From assembly GCA_945859605.1 (NCBI GenBank), contig OX243814.1, forward strand, positions 42,476,931 through 42,540,930: a DNA stretch of 64,000 bases. Reading direction: 5' to 3'. How positions within the stretch are numbered: position 1 is the first letter of the stretch; each line of letters begins with the position of its first letter. This DNA comes from Lumbricus rubellus (Eukaryota; Annelida; Clitellata; Crassiclitellata; Lumbricidae). Shown piece by piece: positions 1 to 46,599 of the stretch. The position numbers and the translations under genes are program-made. The notes under the pieces are model-generated. The model saw only the letters and a program-made list of their open reading frames with translations, made no database searches and was not told the DNA's origin.

Positions 1-2434
1 TTGCCCGTGAGAGGCTACTCGAACTTTAATTGTCCACCACACAACACTTCGACCAGGGATTAGTCAGCGAATGAGTTCTAAAACAGTTGCAATTGCATAT
101 TTTGATTCTTCTTCTTCGCGTATGCTACTGCTCCAGGTCTTGTCGGAGCGTGGACCGGGATTCGGATGAATATTATTCGGTCAGCTGGCGGCATCCTTAG
201 TTTCCCCGAAGGTACTCACAGGGAGGGCGCGCCTGGATTGACCCAGGCTTCGTGAACGCGGATGCCATCCTCCCCCATATTTTGATTGAGTCATTGTGTA
301 TATTATATTATTACAATTTATTGTGAATGGTCGATGTGTATAATAATTTACTTAATTAATCTTTACAAGTTTACATATTAATATCGATTTGTACATTTCT
401 ACACTCTTGTACGGTTTACTGGTACTTTATATTTACAAGTTTACATAGGCCTATTAATATCGATTTGTACATTTCTGCACTCTTGTACGGTTTTCTTGTT
501 TTGCTTTTCATACTTTGATGCTCAGTGTTATAACTGTAGTCTATATCGAAATGGAAATGAAAATGGACGATCATGCTAGCTGAACGATGTTGTTCCTTTG
601 AGTTTACTCCTTGACACCTAAGAACCGTTGGATCAAAAGAACTTGAACTTGTGTGTTTTGGTCATCAATAAAGCTTATGAATTTAATCGAATGAATTGAA
701 AAAACTCACTTAGGTATTCTTGTGCTATTTCGCAGGTCTTCCCCTTGTCTCAACCTCATCTGCCTTCAGAAGAACAGGTTCATTAGATACGATCGGCTAA
801 GATTAGGCTAGCGTGAAATTGTGACTGTGGCAACAAACTTTTCCATACACATTCAGATACATACCCGATTACCCGTACATGCATACATGTACATACAAAA
901 AGCTTCCTATCCCCAATAGAATAACCAGACTGTCAATGTCCGTGTTCAACAGATAGCCAGCCTGTCTTGTTTGACAGTGTCCAGCGATATTTGCACACCA
1001 ATGCCAAAGCCTGGTTGAGCATAAATAATAATTTAGGCCTACTCCCAATCTCAGATCATACACAATGTGACATAAATAATAGAAGTATATATGTAGCGTC
1101 ACAATAGAAAGGCACACACAAGATTCCTCTGCTGGGGCGCATTTGTATCGAACCCAAATAGATCTACATCACGAAGCTTATTGCCCAGCTTCAAATCAGG
1201 AAACTCGTCAATCATTGCGCTTAGATGCCAGTGAAACTATGCATGCGCCGCGTTTCCATAGGCCTACATTATAACTTGAACCCAATCTGTCTTCTCGCGT
1301 CTCCAATCTTCATTCTAAACAGTTTTTCGTTATTAATGTGTCACGTATGCTCTGTTGCATTTAATTCTGTGCGGCAAGAACTTAACATGCCTTAAAAGAA
1401 AATTGGGCCTAACATTCTAAATTTAAGATGAGTTTAACGAAAATAATAGTGCCCGCAGGTTCTCTGTTCGCCAGCAGACTTGAACGGTGCCATATTAAGT
1501 GGTAGGCTTAGGCTATACAATGTGATCTAGAGTGCAGTTGATGACAATTCGTATATGCTGGGCAAAAACCCTAGAGGCCTAGTCTATAGCGACGAATCGG
1601 ACTACCACTGACGAGTCTTCAACTTCACTGTTCAGTGTTCAATGTTCGCGATTTAACTGGTGTAAAAGTGTAAGTCTTACTGCCATTTAGTATCACATAG
1701 GCTATCTCAAAAGCTCAGACACGAAGTCACAGGAGATCGTGGCTTTCCTAAAATAAATTAATGCTGATCATAGGCCTATATTTTTGAGCCAGATGTAAAA
1801 CCGTTCGTTGGCAGGATAGGTCTAATTATTATACTAACCCAATATAGGCTACAACTGTGACAAATTGTCCGGTCTTAGGCAGGACCTCTAGTTTTACTTT
1901 AAATTCCATTTCACACAACTTAGGCCTATTGTCTATTATAGTAGGCCTATCCGTGTTCGTCTAAAAACGATATTTACGCCTGACCTACTATTTTGCACTC
2001 TTGAATGTTTCTTTCTTCGAAATTCTCCAATGGTCTAAGTATTGTTTCTCCCTGTTTCATTCCTTAATAAGTCCACGACGCATTGTTTGCAATTCTAGCC
2101 AGTTTAATAATTTAAAAGTTCCTGTTTATCGTGGCCATCGGACAAATCTAAATGTTACAAATTATTGTTACTTGAATAGGCCTGTAACTAGAGCAAGTAA
2201 ATATACCCACGCTTTATTGCTAGACTTTGTCAGTATGCTTATTGAATCATTACCAGACATAAATCAATAGCCTATTTGAGATAGTTTCAACAAGTTTGTA
2301 ACTTTTTAATAGATGTTACCACGGATTTACAAAATAAAAGTCATATATTGACCTAATTCGCACTTAATAGGCGCGGCATTATAAATTCCGTTATCCCTAT
2401 AATAAATCGCCAGTCTTGACCAGTGGGTGTCGTT
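1..2434. other. No recognisable gene; tandem duplication near 360-495
   Basis: I see no coding sequence here that I can defend; the open frames are short and without known motifs. A 57-bp stretch at about 361-417 is repeated at about 431-493 with one substitution and a 6-bp insertion. An AATAAA lies at 667-672 and could be the polyadenylation signal of a plus-strand gene ending off the left edge, but nothing else supports this. TAGGCCTA-type palindromes are frequent (for example near 446, 1036, 1259, 1772, 1921 and 1942). Confidence 0.5.
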
Positions 2435-3670
2435 TCAATTATACAGGTTATCAATGGACATTTTCGACATGGGAAGGGCGTTATTCTTCGCGGTTCGTAC
2501 GACTATCCTATGCGATTGGACATTACGGGCAAATTTGTTGTAGGTTCTGAACCCGAACGTTCGTTTCAGTTCCGTTCTGAATTTCTGCCCGAGTAGACAG
2601 TAGACGTAGAAATTAACGGAATGATTTAGATACATCATCATGTAGCAGACGACGCGTACAAGCCCGGATACACGAACGCGCAGCAAGACAGTGACGTTGC
2701 TGTCGATGATAGAGTAGGGTAGACTGAGGACGAGCCAGAGGGTGGACAGAGTCAACAGGGTCATGGTGAGTCGCTGTTGGTGCCCGTGGCGCCGGAAGTT
2801 GTTCCTGGGACTAAGGGTGCTCATCACTGGGGGCGAGGTGCTTCGAACGATGACGACGATGATGACGATGTTGAAGGCGAAGACGAGTATTGACGGCAGG
2901 ACGGAGTAGACGAGCAGGTTGAACTTGGGAAAGACGTCGCAGATGAAGCTCTCGTATGAGTAGGACGCGCACGTCGGGGGACCCCCACCTCCCTCACGGT
3001 CATAGACGAGCTCAGACGCCCAGATGATGTTGACGTTGAAGAGCATCACAACGATGCCTGACACGAGCGTCGTGAGGTGTGGCCGCCGGACCAGCCAGAG
3101 GTTGGACGCGCGAAACGGGGTGTAGACGACGAGCAGTCGCTCGAATGTGACGACGACAACGATCCAAGCGGAGAAGTGTGTGCAGCTGTAGAAGGCGTAC
3201 TTGATCAAACGACATGCTGAGTCGGCGACGTGCAGGAGTTCGAATCCGGTTGCAACTCTCAGCCACGTCTTGAATCCACTGAGGTAGAGAACGGAAATGT
3301 CTGCGATCGCCAGAGCTGAAAGATACACCGATGAACAGTTCGTTCTCATCGCTTTCCTCTGAAGCACGACCAGAGACAGGATGTTGCCGACTGTACCGAT
3401 GAGGATTATCAGCGGAAGTACGTACTTGATCAGCTGCGTTCCTAGGAGCATCGTTGCGTCCAGTCTCGTGCCTGCACCACTTCCGTTTCCGTTCGATGAT
3501 GACGATGATGAAAGCCCTGACCCACCGGATGTGACGTTAATCCAGCGTGAGTCTCGCGTTGCCGTCGGATCAATATCGTAGACGCGTACGCCACCTAGCG
3601 TCTCATTCTCCAACAAGTCGCCAACATCAACGGAGCCGAACATTGCAGAAATCGTAATCGTAATCTCCAA
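2435..3670 (-). CDS. Rhodopsin-class (class A) GPCR, neuropeptide-receptor-like, single exon
   Basis: A 411-residue intronless seven-transmembrane receptor that would sit in the plasma membrane and couple an extracellular ligand, probably a peptide, to G proteins. The N terminus (1-75) is hydrophilic, Ser/Gly-rich and carries N-glycosylation sites (NETL, NVTS, NGS). TM1 contains the GN motif (about 95-96), TM2 the LSALAIAD motif with Asp124, TM3 ends in ERL (177-179) in place of DRY, and Cys153 with Cys234 in extracellular loop 2 can form the conserved disulphide. TM6 has a Trp-Leu-Val-Leu-Ser-Leu-Pro stretch (Pro318). TM7 has NHSVNFYVY, the form of NPxxY common in neuropeptide receptors, followed by an amphipathic helix 8 (GQKFRTELKR). 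Family assignment is firm; the ligand cannot be told. The first Met may not be the true start: Met10 is an alternative, because the upstream sequence resembles a short dispersed repeat. Confidence 0.88.
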   Translation of the reverse strand: MEITITISAMFGSVDVGDLLENETLGGVRVYDIDPTATRDSRWINVTSGGSGLSSSSSSNGNGSGAGTRLDATMLLGTQLIKYVLPLIILIGTVGNILSLVVLQRKAMRTNCSSVYLSALAIADISVLYLSGFKTWLRVATGFELLHVADSACRLIKYAFYSCTHFSAWIVVVVTFERLLVVYTPFRASNLWLVRRPHLTTLVSGIVVMLFNVNIIWASELVYDREGGGGPPTCASYSYESFICDVFPKFNLLVYSVLPSILVFAFNIVIIVVIVRSTSPPVMSTLSPRNNFRRHGHQQRLTMTLLTLSTLWLVLSLPYSIIDSNVTVLLRVRVSGLVRVVCYMMMYLNHSVNFYVYCLLGQKFRTELKRTFGFRTYNKFARNVQSHRIVVRTAKNNALPMSKMSIDNLYN

Positions 3671-4039
3671 ATTTCTAAAGCGCTACTTGAAAGCCAAGCG
3701 CGGGGCACCAGCTTATTCACGAGCTACTGATAGATACACTGCGAGAGATACGAGTATCTCTCATGCATATCTCTGATATACATGTAGATACTGATAAATT
3801 ACTTGTATTATTCCATCGTTATATCAAACTCAAAATTTCTAAAACCTAACTCGAAAGCTAACCGCTAAAGCTTATTCACGAATGCTGCGTCAAGTTGTAT
3901 AGCGCTTGCTCAGTAGAGATGTGTGTCCGTTTCCAATGCATCTTTAATCAGTCAATGCCGAAGTATTTGGAGCACGGCTGACACGAAGGTTCTTCCACGC
4001 AATGTATGAATCGATGGCACCAAAGAATGATTCAACAAA

Positions 4040-5195: not shown

Positions 5196-5570
5196 TGGCG
5201 TCTAATGGATGAGCGTCTTGGGAGGGGTACGTGACGTTGTAACCACTGCTTCAACTAGAGTGCGAATAGTTGTGCAACAGAATCCCGTCATAACAGACCT
5301 TTACAGATCTACAGACGATTCTCTGAACATGGAATGGACTTACATTGTATAGCCTACGTCGTCGTTCACGTTAAAACACACTCAGGTTCACTTACACATA
5401 GGAACAATTGCACAGTAGTGCATAATTATGCACGTGTAGCCTATAATTGTTGAGCTTACATCCACAATAGTTAAATAAATAAATACATACAATTATTATG
5501 TAGTTATAATTATATATAATATAATATATGTAGTTTAAATTATATAAATATAATAATTATAATATTATGT

Positions 5571-5870
5571 GAACGGTATTCTAGCAGTTAGCGTGCTGGA
5601 CTATCAACCGAAAGGTTGGCGAGGGGGTCAAATGCTATCAGGGCAGAAATTTCTGTCAACATTTCTGCTCTACGTGTGCCCCTCCCCCTTAGCCAACTCA
5701 TCTATGATGAGTACACTAACCGTACACTGTCAGTGGGAAGATTAGACGGTGAGGAAGAGGACTGGCCACCTGCCCTCATATGCTGAGGCTAAGAAAATGA
5801 AGTCGCTAACACTTCGTACACCCATGGCTGCCTCATGGCTGAATAGTTAAAGAGACCGCTCTTCATTTTC
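5571..5870 (+). mobile_element. tRNA-derived SINE
   Basis: The head (about 5571-5645) is tRNA-like: an A-box-like TAGCAGTTAGCGTGC, an anticodon-arm-like GGACTATCAACCGAAAGG, and a decayed B box (GGGGTCAAATG, where GGTTCGAATCC is expected). It is followed by about 220 bp of non-tRNA body ending in a CTTCATTTTCTTCTTC stretch that runs into (ATCA)n. A real tRNA gene is excluded by the broken B box and T arm. Confidence 0.6.
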
Positions 5871-5872
5871 TT

Positions 5873-6015
5873 CTTCAATCAATCAATCAATCAATCAAAT
5901 CTGTTTATTTTGCAACCAGTATACATGAAAGGTTCACACATCGTTCACATTGGCTACAAAAAAGGGAGGCCCTAAAGGGATTTTAAAAATCCCGCTGTCT
6001 AGGGACACCAACTAT
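5873..6015 (-). mobile_element. LINE 3'-UTR tail fragment
   Basis: Read on the minus strand it has a GGTGTCCCTAG block, a hairpin GGGATTTTTAAAATCCC, a CCCTTTAGGG block, an AATAAA-like sequence and a terminal (TGAT)n. The same layout occurs at 41480-41612, 49915-50065, 54757-54925, and in the 3'-UTR of the LINE at 29461-30899. Confidence 0.6.
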
Positions 6016-6224
6016 TAATGACTTGACAATGCAAGGTGGCCATGACGAAATCTTTGCAAAATCAACACAGTGACTGACAAAAAAAGATAAAGCAACTTAT
6101 ACTAGAGAATGGAAGAAAAAAACAAAACACAAAAACAGGAAACTGAAAACCTCAACACTGCTGAGACACAAACAATAATGAAAAAGAACAAAAAAACTTA
6201 ACTATAGGCTACTGAACTGTACTT

Positions 6225-6547
6225 CTTCTTCATCATCTTTTTCTTCATCATCATCTTCTTCATATTCTTCTTCTTCATCATCTTCTTCTCTATCATCTTC
6301 TTATTCATCATTTTCTTCTTCATATTCTTCTTCATCCTCTTCTCCATCATCTTTTTTCTTCTTCATCATCTTTTCATATTCTTCATCATCATTTTCTTCA
6401 TCATCATCTTCTTCATCATCATCTTATTCTTTTTCATCTTCTTCCTCTTCATCATCTTCTTTATCATCTTCTTTATTATCATCTTCTTCTTCATATATTC
6501 TTATTCTTGATCATCATTATCATCATCATCATCATCATCATCATCAT

Positions 6548-6613
<66 letters not shown>

Positions 6614-6720
6614 CTTCTTCATATGCTTATTATTCTACGTGCTATATATTATCATGCATATTATATTATATATTATATATTATATATTATATATTATATA
6701 TTATATATATTTATTATAGG
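6225..6720. repeat. (TCT/TCA)n triplet repeat running into (TA)n
   Basis: About 390 bp of CTT/CAT triplets, with a nearly pure (CAT)n run at about 6510-6612, followed by ATATT-rich repeats to about 6715. Long Ile- or Ser-rich open frames here are repeat artefacts. Confidence 0.95.
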
Positions 6721-7216
6721 CCTATATATTATATATTATAGATCTATACTTCGTCTTACTATAAAAGCAATCTTCAAGACTTTCGCCCGAGAGTATACCT
6801 GATGAACAGGATCGCGGACTTAGCTCTAGAATGAAAAATTAATTATTAAAAATGGATATTGAATGGTAATAACAATAATACCCTGGTCGCTTTCATGGGT
6901 ACTTTGGCTTATACCCTGCAGAGGAAGACGAGACTTGACCCACCAGACGCCCGTAAATAATAATCTCCAAGACCCTGGGGAATGAGGTAATTCAGGAATA
7001 AAATAGCAATAAAAAAATAATAATTGGAAGAGCGGTTTAATTTTCGTAATATCCTCTCGCACGCCGTCTCAGCTTACACCGACATTGTGCAGTTACATAC
7101 AGTAGACCTACTAACTATAATAATTATGAGTTGATTAGGGTTCGGAGATGGACATAGCCATTGCACTAGATTTGATAAACCTGGTGTTATTCCAGTAGGC
7201 TTTAGCCGATAAATAC

Positions 7217-28984: not shown

Positions 28985-29440
28985 CTTGATATCTTCCAAT
29001 CGGCTCTCACTGAATCCAAATACGATTCAGCTCATCTGGTTTGGCACTAATTCCTCTGCTGGCTCAACCCAAGTTCTTCATATTAAAGTGCCGGTCGTGT
29101 ATGCCTACTGTCTAAACTCCCAAATATCTATATGCAAACTCATCCTTTTGTCGAACTCAGTCACTTCTCTTCGTTTGCTCCGCTCACTTGTACGGCACAG
29201 TCTCTTTGTTCCGCCTTGAAAAACTGTGAATGGCTAAAACACGAACATTTGCCTTCATTATAGCCCAACACTATGGAATCAGCTTCCTTCTTCGTCCCAT
29301 ACATGTACATCCTTATTAACTGGTGGGCCAAGCGACTATATTTTTTTCTCAATGCTGAGCTCTTTTCTCTTTGTTTCTTGCACTGGGAGCGCCTTTGATT
29401 GCTGTGCACCGCGAGAGGCGCTATATAAACTTATACATAC
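28985..29440 (+). pseudogene. L2/CR1-like LINE, 3' end of reverse transcriptase plus tail
   Basis: Translation begins SNRLSLNPNTIQLIWFGT, the conserved segment after the polymerase core in L2/CR1-type LINEs (usually SNRLxLNxxKTxxxxFG). Shifted frames then give RRLRSLVRHSL-like and LWNQLPSS-like C-terminal pieces. The 3' end is GGGAGCGCCTTTGA...GAGGCGCTATATAAAC, the standard tail of this family. Stops and frameshifts show it is dead. It directly abuts the LINE that follows. Confidence 0.7.
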
Positions 29441-29460
29441 AATACGATACAATACAATAC

Positions 29461-30546
29461 AATAATCGATTTGATACCATCAACCATGGCATACTGCTAA
29501 AAAAGCTGTCCATCTATGGCATTCGAAACACCCAGCTAAAATGGTTTGAAAGTTATTTAGAAAACAGAATGCAGCTAGTTAGCTGCAATGGTAGTAAATC
29601 ACCTTTAAAAGAAATTAATTACGGAGTCCCACAAGGCTCTATCCTTGGCCCACTGCTGTTTATCTTATACATAAACGACCTGCCTAGTGTAGCTCCTGAT
29701 CTATTTTTTCTATTGTTTGCAGACGACACTAATATTTTTAACTCTCATTCCTCACTTGAAGCATTAATTAATCATACTAACTCCGACCTAGAAAATATAG
29801 CAGAATGGTTTCGCTCTAATAAGTTAACTCTCAATCTCGATAAAACTAATTACATCATCTTTAGGTCACATAAAAAAGCACTTCCAACGTCTTATCCTAA
29901 TTTATGTATTTTCGGTACACCTATCACTTTAGTGCAATCATCGAAATTTTTAGGAGTTTACGTAGACCAACACCTGTCCTGGAACGAACACGTGTCGAAT
30001 ATCGCAACAAAAATAGCAAAAAATCTAGGAATTTTATCACGCATATCCAGAATTCTCCCACCACAGACCAGAACCTCACTCTATTATACACTCATACATC
30101 CATACATATCTTACTGTAACATTGTTTGGGCTTCTGCATATAAGTCAAACCTCTCGAAAATTCTTGTCCTTCAAAAAAGGGCAATACGATTTGTTGCAAA
30201 AATCCCTTATCGAGCCCACACGAAAGCAGAATTTTTAGGTCTAAAAATACTGCAACCAGATCAAATAAGGCAATTACAAATTGGAATATTTATGTATCGA
30301 TATATCCATAATCAACTACCAGCTACCTATAAAGATTACTTCAAATTCAGAATTGATATTCAAGAGCGTGGCTTGAGAAATACTAACCCTTTCTATATTC
30401 CCTTTGCCCGCACTAATACAAGGCTTGCATCTATTAAATGTATTGGACCAAGAACATGGAATAGTATTCCTCTTGATATTCGCTCCCTGCCGTCTCTTCG
30501 TCTCTTTAAACGGGAGCTTTCTACCTTCATCCAACAAGGAATGTAG
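29461..30546 (+). CDS. Reverse transcriptase, C-terminal part (LINE ORF2 fragment)
   Basis: About 360 uninterrupted codons of a non-LTR reverse transcriptase. Visible are GVPQGSILGPLLFILYIND (finger/palm block), LLFADDTNIF with the catalytic FADD, LNLDKTNYIIF, and SSKFLGVYVDQHLSW (thumb). The C-terminal domain has LYYTLIHPYISYCNIVWAS and LQKRAIRFVAKIPYRAHT, and ends FKRELSTFIQQGM. The endonuclease and the first RT blocks are absent because the copy is 5'-truncated. The frame is open back to 29371, but that part is the (AATAC)n junction and the preceding LINE. The absence of stops over more than 1 kb points to a recent insertion; it cannot be autonomous. Confidence 0.85.
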   Translation, partial: NNRFDTINHGILLKKLSIYGIRNTQLKWFESYLENRMQLVSCNGSKSPLKEINYGVPQGSILGPLLFILYINDLPSVAPDLFFLLFADDTNIFNSHSSLEALINHTNSDLENIAEWFRSNKLTLNLDKTNYIIFRSHKKALPTSYPNLCIFGTPITLVQSSKFLGVYVDQHLSWNEHVSNIATKIAKNLGILSRISRILPPQTRTSLYYTLIHPYISYCNIVWASAYKSNLSKILVLQKRAIRFVAKIPYRAHTKAEFLGLKILQPDQIRQLQIGIFMYRYIHNQLPATYKDYFKFRIDIQERGLRNTNPFYIPFARTNTRLASIKCIGPRTWNSIPLDIRSLPSLRLFKRELSTFIQQGM

Positions 30547-39200: not shown

Positions 39201-39918
39201 TTGACTGGGAGTGCTTCTGAGTAGGTTACTGTGAAAGTGCCCCATATAAAGTCATTAATAATTCGCAATGTCGATCACTATAATACACTATTCTGCAGTG
39301 TTCATGAATCCTAACTATGCCTGGATGTATAGCCATGTATTGATTATAGCACTATCATCACGCCGAATACTAGCTGTCTGAGATGGAATTCGTTCCTCTT
39401 GCATGCGCAAATGCAGTCACGTTAGAATCGATAGTCGAAGACCTAGTAACAGAACGGCAAATAACGCATTTTATCCTCGCATAGCTCAGCCGTATCTGCC
39501 CGATTCGCCATTATCGCTCAACTCAATTACAAATTGCTACAAAAATCCTACACAACGTTAACAGGATAAACTACCCGATAAAATCGAAACAATTCCTAAC
39601 AATTTTACGTAATCTGTGGCTGAACTAACTTTAAACGCGAATTAAACAACACATTTCACAAAATTATACTATTAAATTGCACGTTGCCGACATAAACATG
39701 AAACGAAAGATTGTAAATGCCTTCTTACGCCATGGTAACTCCCACTCAAAAAAGACTACGCAAGGTCTAAATGCGCCAAACAATTAGTCCCAGTTTTAAG
39801 TTCAAATTTCACATTTTCCTAATTGTAGGTTCACTGTAGGTTTTTATGGGAATGAAACTAGACCATACTAAACCCATTGCAAATATAATTGGCTTGTCAC
39901 AAATTTCTTCTAGCTTTT
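36212..39918. mobile_element. Long-inverted-repeat (foldback-type) element, left arm interrupted
   Basis: The 29-bp ends AAAAGCTAGAAGAAATTTGT...GACAAGCCA (36212-36240) are matched exactly in inverted orientation at 39890-39918, with weaker pairing continuing about 110 bp inward. A second inverted pair, 38034-38235 against 39500-39705 (about 75 percent identity by eye), looks like the inner part of the same long arm. In the left arm the two blocks are about 1.6 kb further apart than in the right, so something inserted there. I could not settle the target duplication or superfamily. Confidence 0.6.
38727..39270 (+). pseudogene. L2-like LINE, 3' end of reverse transcriptase
   Basis: Pieces in shifting plus-strand frames read SRLDY-like, VLEQVLRTAAHLIGHISKFD, VLHWLSNTHRITYRVSAIVW and CMEGLVALMYLQELC. 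Together they match the L2/CR1 C-terminal consensus (RLDYCNSLL, QRVQNAAARL, LHWLPVRxRIxYK, LxGLAPxYL). The tail GGGAGTGCTTCTGAGTAG...GTGCCCCATATAAA follows. It lies inside the long-inverted-repeat element and is dead. Confidence 0.7.
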
Positions 39919-39994
39919 GAAATTTTTGGTTTAATTCTGGCCTACTACACGTAGCCTACGTCACTCAATTGCACGCAAAACGCAAGACCTGTCA

Positions 39995-40002
39995 CTGCTG
40001 TC
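39995..40002 (+). repeat. Target-site duplication of the MULE, left copy
   Basis: CTGCTGTC directly abuts the left inverted repeat; the identical octamer abuts the right repeat at 46346-46353. Mutator-like elements duplicate 8-11 bp, so this fits. Confidence 0.92.
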
Positions 40003-40053
40003 ACAAGCAGTTCTACTTAGACTGGTCAAATATGGGACCGACCAATCACAGGC
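40003..40053 (+). repeat. MULE left terminal inverted repeat
   Basis: 51 bp, exact reverse complement of 46295-46345. It holds CGACCAATC at 40039-40047. Confidence 0.96.
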
Positions 40054-40337
40054 CGTGTCTTAAACATAATAATGCGTAATGCGTGTCTAAAATAAACCAT
40101 CGATATTTATATTTTAGAATAATAGTATACCTAAAATTAATGTTTATATACACATAGGCCTATCGATGAAATGTGAAACAAGCACATTAGGGCCTACTAT
40201 TATTGTTGGTATGCAACAGCGTTATATTACCGCTGGTTGAAATTTATTATTATTATTAAGAATTAAAAGTGAAAGTTGCACGAAAGCGCGAACACGAGTC
40301 TAGGCCTTATCGCAATAATTAAACTAGTCTCTGACAA

Positions 40338-40448
40338 GACCTGGAAGACGGCGGAATGACGTGGGAGGCGGCCAGGACAGCTGCAGAGGACAGAGTGACG
40401 TGGAGGACCTGTGTCGCCCGATGCACTACAAATGCGTGGAAGGACTAA
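40338..40448 (+). pseudogene. LINE reverse transcriptase C-terminal relic inside the MULE
   Basis: A plus-strand frame reads WEAARTAAEDRVTWR then TCVARCTTNAWKD and a stop, the typical end of an RTE-like LINE polymerase. It was presumably captured by, or inserted into, the left non-coding part of the MULE. Confidence 0.5.
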
Positions 40449-41479
40449 GGTCTAAGGTCTGAAAGGAAACAAGATGGCAAATCAGTGGATTGGTAATGTT
40501 GACAGATATTTTGGTTTAATGATAAACACGCTAGAGCATTTACACTCATGTAAATGCCATGGATAATGTTCATTTTGGGGTAATGGCTAACAAGTGAAAA
40601 AACCTAAAACTGGTTAAAACAGATTTTTGGCCCCCCCCCCCTGGATATGTGCTGCCCCAAGAAATTTGCCTGTGCCTAAGGCCGGCCCTGTCAATATATT
40701 GATACTAGACTCCATTTCTGGGTGACTGCACATGTTAAAACTCCTTTTTATTAATAAAAAAATCTGTCATGGGTGCAAGGAATCCAACAGCCAAGACTCT
40801 ACCATAACCGAGGCTTTTACTACTTTTACACAAAACTAACAAATGAAATGAAATCATAAGTTTTATTCAATCACAGCAAAGCAATGCAATGCATGCAAAC
40901 AAACAGGATCATAGCGTTAAAATCCAACATCATAGTAAATCAGTAGTCATTCCAACCATATTGCTAATTAACAGTATCAACTTAAAATAGTGGAATGACA
41001 TTTGATGAAATTTGATGCCTGCAAGTTTTATAGCAACAGGATATTAAAACATTTTCATAATGGAAAAAGGAAACCTTAGACCTATTGCAGCATCTGTTGG
41101 TGTAATATCGATAAGTTCATTTGCTAATTAATTTTATGCAAAAACTATGCACAGCAATTACAATCGTAATCTCCACATTTTTTAACACCACTCGAAAGCC
41201 AATGCTTTTGACAGGTTCTTAAAAGTTACTATACACACAAAAGACAATGACTTCCATTGTCCAGCAATAATCACAGCAGAATCCTTGCAGAACCACTATA
41301 AATCAGGAAAGTGCAAGGGGTGGAGGGTTAGAGGGAGGGAGTATGCCAAATTGCATTCAGAGATATTTCCCAGTCAGATGGAGGCAGCAAGTGGTTTTGT
41401 CAACATCCACAACACCTCACGTTTGCAAATAGTTCGTCATGGCCACCTCACACCGTCAACTCAATATATTAGCTGGTGT

Positions 41480-41612
41480 TCCTAGACAGTGGGATTATTT
41501 TATCCCTTTAGGACCTCCCTTTTTGTAACCAATGAGCAAGATATGCAAACCTGTCATGTATACTTTGGTTGCAAAATAGAAATATTTGATTGATTGATTA
41601 TTAACAATACTG
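41480..41612 (+). mobile_element. LINE 3'-UTR tail fragment
   Basis: GGTGTTCCTAGACAG, hairpin GGGATTATTTTATCCC, CCTTTAGGACC, an A-rich stretch and (ATTG)n at the end, colinear with the minus-strand copy at 5873-6015. Confidence 0.6.
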
Positions 41613-42128
41613 ACAGATAATCTAAAGTTCTAAACCTAAGGACTGATTTAACAGTCAGGCCGATAATTAGCATGCTGACAATTTCATCCAAATCGGTTGT
41701 AAGCGAAAACAGATGCAAAACTGTAGAAGCTAACACATAATCCAAATGCAGAGTCACTTAGAACAAATTGAAACTCAAACGACCACATGAGCAAAATGAT
41801 TCACTGTTCTTGAACTTGTGCTTTAAGCAACATGTCAAAGTACATTACATCACACTGCAAACCATTACGTCCATGGAGAAATTCCTACATGTCCCCCATA
41901 GCAAAAATGTCTCTCAAATATGAAATTAACAATCAAGTGGGGTCATAGTCCTAAGAATGAAGATTATAGACATATTTCTCGGCCAGTCAGTTAAATAACC
42001 ATTATTATTAGCCTCTAATTATTATTCTGTTGCAACAGTCCAATCTGTTATGATAATACATGTACTTCGTAATGGTTACTCCAATATTTCAAATTCAGTG
42101 TCTTTCGTTTGTTTATTTATTTATTTAT

Positions 42129-42129
42129 T

Positions 42130-42212
<83 letters not shown>
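42129..42212. repeat. (CA)n microsatellite
   Basis: A pure CA run of about 82 bp. Confidence 0.98.
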
Positions 42213-42213
<1 letters not shown>

Positions 42214-42371
42214 GTCAAACAGAATAAACATGAGTCATTAAACAGAGTGCAAAAGAAATCAGAAAAAACTAACAGCTTATACAGTCCTGATCCCTAGCTC
42301 CATGACTATTTATATAGTGCAAGTTAGTATTAGTACTTAATTAATTAATTATAACATAACTGAAAGTAACA

Positions 42372-45300
42372 TTATAAACATAAAATGTAATAATAATAAT
42401 TAATAATAGAAATGCTGAAATAATTCACTAACTTATGGTATCTGACAAGAAAAAAACATACCAATTGGTGTAACAAAGTCTTGGACTTGTGTTTTCTTGT
42501 TGACCAGAGGGTTCGCTGTGTAGGTGCCAATTTGTTAACAGGCTCGTGTGAAGTTGGTGGAGGTGGCAAACGAGGCGTCGCTGTCTTATCTTTTAAAGCT
42601 GCAACAAGCGATCTCAGTCTGCTCATGTGTTCCACAACCACTTCGGCAGCAGCAGCGTCGTCCCCCACATCGCTTTGGATGTCAGCCCATAATAGCTGAG
42701 CGCTACTCATAGACTGGTCGACATTACGAGGTGGCCGACGACTGGAAATGTCACTGATAATAGCGTCTGATTCGCAGATATCAGACAACACTGTGGGAAG
42801 CCGATTTGTTGCAACTTCTTCTACATGATCAACGTCTTGATTGCAATCGTCGTCTTCATTGCAGTGAAGTTGAGAACGCAGAGGATTGGTTGCATCTGGT
42901 TTGTTGCTTTGATTCTCAGATGTGTAGTGACGAACAGGCTTGTAAAGATGTATAATCAGATGAATGTGCTTGCAGATCGTGTTACGCAAAGCACTGTCCA
43001 GACACGTGCAAGAGAACGCATGAACGCAAATGTTGCATTCGCTACACATCAGCGGACACGTCGGAGCTTCATGTGGAACAGTCTCATTTTGTCGAACCAT
43101 GTATGTGATGTCATGAGCACCAGCAACAGAATACAGCGTGTTTTCGTTGATACAGCTGCATTGATCTGCGTTTAGTCTTAGGCAGCCCTGGTGTCGTTTC
43201 CTTATGCCTCCGACGTGTCTCGTCCACTTCCCCTTGTGCAGTTTCCGCAGTCTGTCGCTCATCTTGGACCTCATGAACTTCATGAGGGCATGTATGCTTT
43301 TGTCTAGGCGGTGCACCTTGCGGCCCTGCAGATGAACGTGCTTGATCACACGATGCATTGCTTCAAGGTGCATGTTGTGATGCACCTTGAGGCCAAGACG
43401 GTAACAGTATGCCCAGAGGTGTGGTCTACTCGCATATTCACGATCAAAATAATTAGCAAAGTCTGATGTCTTGTGATCATCTTTACCAGCTGCCAAGAAT
43501 TGAGAAATTTTTTCGTTAAATTTCTCCAGATCAGGTAATTCCATGATGGCTCGAAGAGTCTTGTATAACACGGCTTTCAGCTGACTGTCACCCTTAATGC
43601 GTGTGAGGTTTTTCCTCCATGCACGGTCGATGTGCCATGTGCAGAGGAGTCTGTGGGCCGGCTTTCCCATCACAGCGTTCCATGCATTGCTGTAGACCTC
43701 GGTGTCATCGGTCATAAGTATAACGCCACTTAACGGGTATCCCATTGCCTCTTTAACAGTCTGTAAAAATATGCACATGGAATGCTCGTCTACATGATTA
43801 CTGTAGCAGAAGGCAACAGGAAAGCCTTCGCCATGCTCATCAATGGCAAGGAGCGTCGTCAACTGAAAATCGTAACTGTTCAAGCCATGAGTGGAGTCCA
43901 TGCATACTTCGCGACCTGGACGGCAGAATTCACGAGCTCCAATAATCTGAGAGTCGGTGGCCAAGATGAGTATGAAATCCTCCGATCTCAAATTAAATGA
44001 TGATTCCTCGCCTTGAAATTTGATTAGGCGGACCAAGTTCTTCGTAGATGGATTCTGTTGCGTGCGGTGAACCCATGCAGCAACGCTGTCCGCATCATTT
44101 TTATGTAGAACTTGGTTTTTATTTATGCCGAAATCACGCGAGATGTTTGCCAGATCTTGTTTGGAGAGGAATTGCATATTGGTCATAACGGGGACACTTG
44201 CAGTGGAATGAATTGAATCCAAGACATCGTCGTAAGGTATTCCGGCAGCCAGTTTCACTGCAATCGCTTCACGCTGCTGTCTCCGTAGTCGAATGTGAGC
44301 AACATCGCAACTGTGACCGCAATGCTCTGTGTAGTAGCTCACCGACACGCCACCTGAGTGTGACACAAGTAATTGCCAATTCTATTAAACCATATGACAA
44401 ATAAAATTTAATTTCAAATGTGAAATTCAAAGGTAAAAGCCCAGACTGGCTGCCCGTACTCCAAACAATATGGCCGTTAATTAATGCAATAAAATTAGGG
44501 TTAGTTTTAGGGTTAGTGCAGTCATTCTGCTGAAATTGAAGCTGAATTGATGAACAATGTTGTCGATGGTCGCACTCTTATTTTATTGCACCAATTCAAA
44601 ATATCAGACCAGTGTCAGAGTAGCACTATGAGAGAGATCTTGAGGCAACTCGGAGTTGCCGAAGCTGGTAGTAACAACTACAAGTGATCAAACTAATATG
44701 TTTTTAGAAATTGAGCTCTTGATCCAGAGTAATTCCAATACTCTGGAGGTGCTTTAGAAGCCAGTCTAAGACTTCGGCGGAGTGTTGGGGATGGTTAGTC
44801 ACAACAGGCTTCTTCACAATCTGGTTCATTCAGTCCAACAACAAACTTACTTAGTGTTAGGAACATGATCACAGTGGTTTCTATTTGGCTTAAACACCGA
44901 TTCAAATTTTTTATGCAAATTCTCTATGGTAGCCTAATCTAGTCAGAAGTAGTTCTGTAGCTGTGCCCTATATGTGCATTACCTCAACTTTCCGCCTCTC
45001 TTCTTCTTCTTGATAACAATAGCAAACTAACCGGTTGGACATATTTTGACGAACATTGCAGCAGGACACATTCCGCCGATCTTGCAAGTGCCTTGTATCT
45101 TCAGGTGACGTAATCTACCATCTTTTGCAATATACCGACCGCTGCGATTGCAGTAGTACACTCGAGATGTCACGGTTTGCTTTTGAAGCTTTCGATCTCC
45201 TGTTGCTTTAATAAACTGTGTCATCGTTGTATCTTCTTCCTGACATTTCCAATTGTTGAAATCTGTGAGAAGGTAAATAAAAGGAGCTACAGTTCAAATG

Positions 45301-46182
45301 AAACAGCTACAATACAATAATGGTAGCACAGAAACAAGGAAAAATAATTAAATAAAACGGTATACATGTACAATCAGGGGGCGAAAATTTCTTACTTATA
45401 TTTGCAGTGCCGTCAGCGTTGTCATTGCACGTCTTTTTCGTGAGGGTCGGTTAGGGCTCAGGTTAGGCATCGTGAGGGTCGGTTAGGGTTAGTGTTAGGG
45501 TTAGTTTAGCCATTAGAAACTCCGGCGGATTGATGGCAAAAGACACCGTGTATTTTTCGCCCCCTGATAGTACATGATCGCCAATAAAACGAACTACAGC
45601 ATTCACAGGACAGAGCACCTGCCTGTATAATAGCAATTACAGACATGGTCTAAGTTTCCTTAATACAAATATATACATGCATAGATATATAAACACATAA
45701 TCATGTATGCATAATTATAAAGATATAATTATCTGCACTTATTTCTACAATTATGCCATGTATGTGAGATCTATACAGCTCAAATCTCAAACACTTACAC
45801 AGTGCGTAAGAAGACACGATAGAAATCAGATATTATTAGGTCTATGGGAATAAATAAATAAATAACGAGTTCACTTCACTTTCACTAATAGCTTACCAGT
45901 AAAATTATCGAACTGTAAAGCTCTTCTTTCACTGTTCCTTCGCTTTTGAAAAGAAGCCTGTTCATGTTTTCGCTTTCGGTGATAGATGAGAGCTTTTTTG
46001 TTAACGAGTTTCTCACCGCAAATATTGCACGTAATAACCGATTCATTAGAGGTGTGTTTAGGCTTCCGACCTCGTCGGACTTCTGGAACAGCAGCGTCTT
46101 TGTGAAACTGACGAACGTGTCGCCTCAACGTTGAGTTTGTAATAAACTGTTTCTTACAATTATCACAAGTAAACATCGACAT
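42372..46182 (-). CDS. MULE transposase: C2H2 fingers, FAR1-like domain, MULE DDE core, SWIM finger (3 exons)
   Basis: Three minus-strand exons join in frame at GT-AG introns: 46182-45897, 45262-45032 and 44353-42372, giving 832 residues. Exon 1 has two C2H2 fingers (FTCDNCKKQFITNSTLRRHV; ITCNICGEKLVNKKALIYH). Exon 2 with the start of exon 3 is FAR1/WRKY-GCM1-like: VYYCNRSGRY, GTCKIGGMCPAAM, then EHCGHSC. Exon 3 carries the MULE core: Asp325 in CMDSTHGLNSYDF, Asp388/389 in ILMTDDTEVYSNAW, the C-x2-H motif CTWHIDRAW, and Glu503 in NMHLEAMHRVIK. A SWIM finger follows (FSCTCLDSALRNTICKHIH). It would bind the element ends and catalyse its movement. No stop or frameshift is seen. A GTATGT near 42460 could be a donor for a further exon, so the last about 30 residues are uncertain. 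Because it lies inside perfect inverted repeats, it is a transposon gene and not a host gene. Confidence 0.9.
44484..44592. repeat. Small inverted-repeat insert with TTAGGG-like motifs (intron of the transposase gene)
   Basis: TGCAATAAAA and TTTTATTGCA bracket about 109 bp. Near the left end are ATTAGGGTTAG and TTTAGGGTTAG, telomere-like hexamers. Confidence 0.35.
45375..45566. mobile_element. MITE-like insert in intron 1 of the transposase gene
   Basis: CAGGGGGCGAAAA is matched exactly in inverted orientation at the right end. The 192-bp interior contains GGTTAGGG-type repeats. A flanking AT on both sides is the only possible target duplication. Confidence 0.5.
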
Positions 46183-46248
46183 TTTCTTACTTTACTATAC
46201 AATGTTGACATAAATTATAATTTCCACACACAATGAGACATAGCCGGT

Positions 46249-46309
46249 GATTGGTCGCTGTATGAATGGCTACGATTGGTCGGGATGAGAAATCGCCTGT
46301 GATTGGTCG
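46249..46309 (+). promoter_or_regulatory. Three GATTGGTCG subterminal repeats (putative transposase binding sites)
   Basis: Exact GATTGGTCG at 46249-46257, 46274-46282 and 46301-46309. The left end has one copy in inverted orientation. The array also lies directly upstream of the transposase start at 46182 and so could act as its promoter. Binding is inferred from position only. Confidence 0.55.
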
Positions 46310-46345
46310 GTCCCATATTTGACCAGTCTAAGTAGAACTGCTTGT
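46295..46345 (+). repeat. MULE right terminal inverted repeat
   Basis: 51 bp, exact reverse complement of 40003-40053, followed by CTGCTGTC (46346-46353), the right target-site duplication. Confidence 0.96.
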
Positions 46346-46599
46346 CTGCTGTCAGCCTGTCGCAAAGTGATAATTTTGTAGTAAGATATTCGTCGCCCGA
46401 ATATTGTTTATGCAGGAAAGGAAAACCCGAACCGGAAGTTCTTCGAACGAGCGCTGCCGGAAGTAGTCGACACCGAATAGAATATTCTATTAGACGCCAG
46501 TGTTAGACGCGACACCTATCGTCTCTTCTGTGCATGACACCGACGATGTTTATGTAGCGCTCGTTTGTGAGATAATTATTGGAGATAGTATATGAGGCA

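Follow-up and report, generated by a model that had tools for sequence, protein, structure and literature searches.

A stretch of 64,000 nucleotides from the genome of the earthworm Lumbricus rubellus (contig OX243814.1, here C4, at 42.48-42.54 Mb; this whole stretch is called the window) holds a Mutator-like transposon (MULE) with perfect ends and a long transposase frame. A preliminary description had called this element complete and apparently intact, and the question raised by the locus is whether it really is. This claim fails because a private 760-bp deletion truncates the transposase and, judged from its sequence, the window copy is a deletion derivative without the transposase tail. 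Very probably, it is a recent insertion of a young MULE family that has lost 760 bp and would be non-autonomous but mobilisable.

The deletion was seen in a comparison of the window copy with L016, another copy of the family in the same genome. There were no mismatches in 3,867 + 2,166 + 306 aligned columns, the remaining differences being gaps and the length of a CA tract, and L016 holds 760 bp extra at window 42480|42481. Gone from the window copy are the last 54 residues of the transposase, the native stop codon and downstream sequence; its 832 codons comprise 797 native and 35 read-through ones, and the native length is 851. The frame continues to 851 residues in L016, L013 and L019 (the L016 and L019 proteins are identical, and that of L013 differs by one residue). 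Among the best candidates of a genome-wide protein search, the window copy alone gave a match ending at query residue 625 of 678, and no second copy with its deletion junction was seen in the copy comparison or among these candidates. The complete native transposase expected of an autonomous element is missing from the window copy. Since the loss removed the transposase tail, this copy is most likely a non-autonomous deletion derivative; since neither of its ends has a mismatch and other loci of the genome carry intact copies of 851 codons, it is probably mobilisable in trans. The earlier suggestion that it may still be able to move would hold in this sense only, and not for an intact copy. 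The features at the junction are as follows.

42372..42479, minus strand: read-through end, 35 non-native codons and an accidental TAA, non-coding in L016
42480..42481, no strand: junction of the private 760-bp deletion, with 2-bp microhomology TC; the lost segment corresponds to L016 element positions 2432-3191

The transposase frame lies on the minus strand, and the three-exon structure of 832 codons proposed in the preliminary description was borne out, with the exons joined in phase 1 at GT-AG borders and the D, D, E and CTWH codons in place.

45897..46182, minus strand: exon 1, start codon and two C2H2 zinc fingers
45032..45262, minus strand: exon 2, with a weak FAR1 match below cut-off (E 0.067)
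44353-42372, minus strand: exon 3, whole frame in the window
42481..44353, minus strand: native part of exon 3, with the MULE DDE domain, CTWH and CxC...CxH
43898-43896, 43709-43707 and 43364-43362, minus strand: DDE codons D, D and E, respectively
43643-43632, minus strand: CTWH codons
43010-42966, minus strand: CxC...CxH (SWIM-like)

Exon 3 matches the Pfam MULE domain PF10551 with 38.7 bits (curated cut-off, 27.6), in agreement with the MULE identity assumed before. The DDE triad was assigned by analogy with the animal MULE Muta1; D152, D215 and E330, as well as C237 and H240, are invariant across all 45 rows of alignment A2, which consists of the window protein and 44 roughly full-length proteins picked from 120 retrieved. 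C-x2-H is a motif of MULE transposases, and CxC...CxH is the SWIM motif, a zinc finger that is frequent, not universal, in MULEs. The CxC...CxH spacing is conserved in A2, a Pfam SWIM match is absent up to E 1, and no Pfam match to FLYWCH was found in the window transposase exons. Outside support for the exon plan was provided by sister families (synonymous divergence of the coding sequence, dS, about 0.5), in which the end of exon 1 is retained and exon 3 is open.

The AlphaFold2 model of window exon 3 had a predicted local distance difference test score (pLDDT) of 79.3 and a predicted template modelling score (pTM) of 0.74, with pLDDT below 50 at residues 614-659, read-through included. In a fold search with this exon 3 model, the top structural match was the ISCth4 transposase (PDB 6xgx, 6xg8), which has the DDE core in common with it at 12% identity over 240 aligned residues, and which we take to be of the IS256 family and of bacterial origin. 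A sequence search of solved structures with the transposase gave three matches, the best with E 0.21, none of them meaningful.

At the ends of the element, the mismatch-free 51-bp inverted repeats and the exact 8-bp flanking duplication described earlier were both recovered.

39995..40002, no strand: target-site duplication (TSD), left copy (CTGCTGTC), identical to 46346-46353
46346..46353, no strand: TSD, right copy (CTGCTGTC)
40003..40053, plus strand: left terminal inverted repeat (TIR), 51 bp perfect (58 bp at 95%)
46295..46345, minus strand: right TIR, 51 bp perfect (58 bp at 95%)
40039..40049, minus strand: subterminal motif CGACCAATCAC, single at the left end
46247..46309, plus strand: subterminal motif three times at the right end, GTGATTGGTCG at 46247, ACGATTGGTCG at 46272 and GTGATTGGTCG at 46299

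The first 50 TIR bases occur twice in the window and not once in 100 shuffles, and the subterminal motif is a candidate transposase binding site.

Further copies and short derivatives with these ends, for which the preliminary description had proposed a genome search, do exist. In the L. rubellus assembly searched (787,420,884 bases, 368 contigs), 14 sites matched the left 126 bases with 98-100% identity across 118 bases or more, and both ends were present in 12 copies, the window being included in either count; short derivatives with related ends are described below. The best named match to the cytochrome oxidase I (COI) sequence of this assembly was from Eisenia nordenskioldi, with 96% identity over 98% of the query. 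TSDs are perfect in ten of the 12 two-ended copies (nine of 8 bp and one of 9 bp), while that of L009 has one mismatch and none could be aligned for L013. In L020 the right end is absent, the sequence of L021 breaks off at an assembly gap, and L022, which is older, yielded a right end only. The two-ended copies other than L009 and L011 differ by 0-11 pairwise substitutions over aligned kilobases; L009 and L011 are 13-32 substitutions from the other copies and none from each other. A combined search was made with the joined flanks of ten copies, and among the 40 of 1,699 candidates that were scored, uninterrupted paralogous empty sites with a single TSD at the junction were found for three of the ten insertions (L019, 140/140 at two places; L017, 138/140; L009, 94%). 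Because just 40 candidates were scored, the other seven insertions are not thereby devoid of empty sites. The near-identical copies, the TSDs and the three empty sites suggest a young and recently mobile family, a conclusion that we regard as well supported, and for the family the earlier claim of recent mobility stands.

Private deletions relative to L016 occur in eight of the ten other two-ended copies (L010, L012-L015 and L017-L019), and L009 and L011 have one deletion in common. Most of the deletion junctions among the copies show microhomology of 1-17 bp, and two have inserts of 3 bp and 202 bp instead; large stretches foreign to L016, some of them plainly nested insertions, are present in L009, L011, L012, L017 and the one-ended L020. 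These internal deletions would fit interrupted gap repair or microhomology joining. L009 and L011, with no substitutions over 7,273 columns, share a frameshift and a 388-bp nested insertion and lie at different target sites, which is evidence for the spread of a defective copy. A further truncated copy (L037, C2:48130500-48136500), 99% identical over 2.8 kb, was missed by the end searches. Two more parts of the window copy are listed here.

40054..42371, no strand: left part of the element, no recognised gene, including a (CA)41 tract
45365..45576, no strand: short palindromic insertion in intron 1, resembling a miniature inverted-repeat transposable element, with 23-bp inverted arms (96%)

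The left end of the palindromic insertion was found in 11 of the 15 copies examined. The (CA)41 tract lies at window 42131-42212, and its longest run has between 13 and 41 units in otherwise near-identical copies.

Several points weigh against reading the window copy as a non-autonomous deletion derivative. Loss of activity is deduced from the loss of the tail, and the deletion could be an assembly error. No empty site turned up for the window insertion itself in a search of the assembly with its own joined flanks, which listed only its own two flanks and repeats, at least 38 of which match the outer 88-105 bases of the left flank. The C-terminal region of the model has low pLDDT, but since the modelled C terminus is the read-through tail, the model is uninformative on the fold of the native tail. 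Moreover, the end motif of the native protein is absent from six of the 25 nearest homologues, at least one of which is a fragment, and the catalytic and CxC...CxH residues are all upstream of the deletion, as would be expected if the tail were dispensable, the 832-residue product active and the window copy fully autonomous. We consider this unlikely, however, because 19 of the 25 carry FEH[SN]Y no more than 24 residues from the C terminus, and four distant homologues (P0084, P0103, P0112 and P0119) in the retrieved set of 120 carry F[DE]H[ST]Y no more than eight residues from the end; a tail motif is missing from most of the more distant proteins in that set. In addition, when L016 was compared with its 85%-identical sister L023, exon 3 aligned gap-free and stop-free with a ratio of non-synonymous to synonymous substitution rates (dN/dS) of 0.15; the ratio was 0.105 in the catalytic core and 0.205 in the final 55 codons, where 13 changes are synonymous and 12 non-synonymous, and by this measure the lost tail evolves under constraint. 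The absence of a second copy with the window junction among the copies and best candidates compared also argues against an active shortened form. All 20 rows of alignment A3 were picked for bearing the motif, so its invariant tail residues are circular and were not relied on; tail conservation rests on all 120 retrieved proteins and on alignment A1, the rows of which were picked before the motif was known. The missing tail probably matters.

A mis-assembly that created the 760-bp gap at a locus which is in reality intact appears distinctly improbable. The assembly represents one haplotype, not fully phased, from 2,261 contigs, as far as its published account goes (PMC11015115), and the near-identity of copies between loci favours mis-joins; yet the same TSD stands on both flanks of the window copy, and the private deletions of the other copies, with their microhomologies, are such as real events would give. 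The same account names alternate-haplotype contigs of this worm (GCA_945859625.1) and the RNA-Seq run ERR9837136. A MULE-derived host gene that has been domesticated and is no longer a transposon would also show an open reading frame under purifying selection, but the TIRs and TSDs, the many near-identical copies scattered over different sites, and the empty sites make this explanation scarcely credible.

Under the favoured explanation, a recent insertion of a young family with an internal loss, intact members would encode the 851-residue transposase, composed of a pair of C2H2 fingers, a short second module, the DDE domain, a SWIM-like motif and a conserved tail that ends in FEHSY. If it works as the transposases of other MULEs do, it would bind to the TIRs and perhaps also to the repeated GTGATTGGTCG motif, cut the element out and reinsert it with a duplication of 8-9 bp. 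The window copy would have inserted recently, and an internal stretch of 760 bp would have been lost from it before or after landing, either through interrupted repair following excision or through microhomology end joining; the transposase of intact copies could still move it.

With PF10551 above its cut-off, the DDE triad and C-x2-H, and TIRs with 8-9 bp TSDs (8-11 bp in MULEs), the family is, on these sequence features, a cut-and-paste MULE. In a tree of 111 sequences (a quick build with no bootstrap, rows under 450 residues excluded), it falls within a 35-row clade (Shimodaira-Hasegawa-like approximate likelihood ratio test, 99), and the sea urchin row and the named arthropod rows fall outside, including the Myzus persicae row P0109, which is not established as Spectre. 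The tree does not contain the Phantom, Spectre and Ghost references, and the clade may already bear a name.

Among known systems, Muta1 of Aedes aegypti is an active animal MULE, and few active MULEs were known as of 2017, according to the parts of its report considered here (PMC5225508). Like Muta1 as described there, the earthworm family has 8-9 bp TSDs, several virtually identical copies, a DDE transposase from more than one exon and non-autonomous derivatives with the same ends. Muta1, which has been assayed by excision in yeast, is 3.2 kb long, with 145-bp TIRs and a 504-residue protein with a putative FLYWCH finger (PMC5225508), whereas the earthworm family has 7.06 kb (L016), 51-bp TIRs, 851 residues, C2H2 fingers and a conserved C-terminal tail. 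The C2H2 finger, the 8-bp TSD and perfect TIRs are shared with the Spectre clade, whose TIRs are given as 74 bp in the text and 76 bp in the table, in contrast to 51 bp here (PMC6446971). In the sections of that survey consulted, Spectre has two open reading frames (C2H2; transposase) and arthropod hosts (PMC6446971), whereas the annelid family has one predicted spliced gene, with C2H2 and transposase on separate exons that join in frame by predicted splicing. The Phantom clade, group 20 of the published tree, likewise comprises animal MULEs with 8-10 bp TSDs and, in some, SWIM; FLYWCH, SWIM or no finger is listed for it in those sections, and no C2H2 (PMC6446971). The N-terminal C2H2 fingers and the absent FLYWCH match of the earthworm protein do not seem to point to Phantom. 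No description of an earthworm MULE was found among the matches listed in the open-licence literature, and the family appears to be new, of a kind already known.

Sister families are present in the same genome. For L023, the ends are related, the duplication has 9 bp (CGTGAAATA) and exon 1 ends in the same way, and blastn gave no match between this locus and the left part of the window copy (40054..42371) beyond the end region. A third sister-family member (L036:1231-8113) has 102-bp TIRs at 89%, the TSD TGTTTCAT and an exon 3 that is open; nested between its exons 3 and 2 is a reverse-transcriptase fragment (5554-6507, RVT_1 E 2e-15). L026:6136-6912 is a 777-bp non-autonomous derivative with related TIRs and the TSD AGAAACAC, and contains repeated GGTTAGGGTTAG telomere-like blocks; L025 (about 6209-6979) is another short non-autonomous relative with related TIRs. 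A second MULE group comprises ten loci whose open frames span 744-848 residues and share 33-39% identity with the window transposase (Pfam MULE domain, 44.2 bits in the one locus tested).

Second MULE group in this assembly (G000): C18:15469073 (= L038:2052-4538), C2:28721705, C2:59965084, C4:2141112, C17:2709095
Second MULE group, continued: C17:12313836, C15:20155030, C6:35428573, C10:22937826, C3:56136025

A preference for insertion at gene starts is not claimed, despite promoter-like motifs and raised CpG in the flanks. The motifs, chosen after the flanks had been viewed, occurred in 6 of 12 flanks; the comparison sets were random 600-bp pieces, with 10 of 48 (p 0.051), and window pieces, with 15 of 94 (p 0.013). 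The observed/expected CpG (cytosine-guanine dinucleotide) ratio was 1.09 in flanks versus 0.85 in random pieces (p 0.011) and 0.74 in window pieces (p 0.002). The preference was dropped because, of the six flanks with a motif, three (L009, L017 and L019) are dispersed repeats; the outer part of the window left flank, which was counted in this test, is one too. Window 39853-39947, most of the searched 150-bp left flank, is a dispersed repeat with at least 38 further matches. Two viral-contig scans, with the single protein and with alignment A1, confirmed no viral relatives, and Rfam and tRNA scans of the window gave nothing. Two other features of the window were recorded.

2435-3682, minus strand: open frame of a rhodopsin-type G-protein-coupled receptor (7tm_1, 42.2 bits), 83% identical to a relative
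29359-30546, plus strand: reverse-transcriptase fragment (Pfam RVT_1, E 2.7e-17)

It is possible, though we hold it doubtful, that the family represents an undescribed major clade of animal MULEs, marked by the FEHSY tail and C2H2 fingers and mobile today in L. rubellus, and that the window protein would act as a tail-swap competitor of the intact transposase. An element may have perfect ends and a long open frame and still not be intact; here the missing tail came to light only through comparison with sister copies. The function of the conserved C-terminal tail can be put to the test and, with copies free of substitutions and intact in their coding sequence, empty sites and natural internal deletions, in an earthworm that has a chromosome-level genome and RNA data, the family offers a practical system for testing the activity of animal MULEs.
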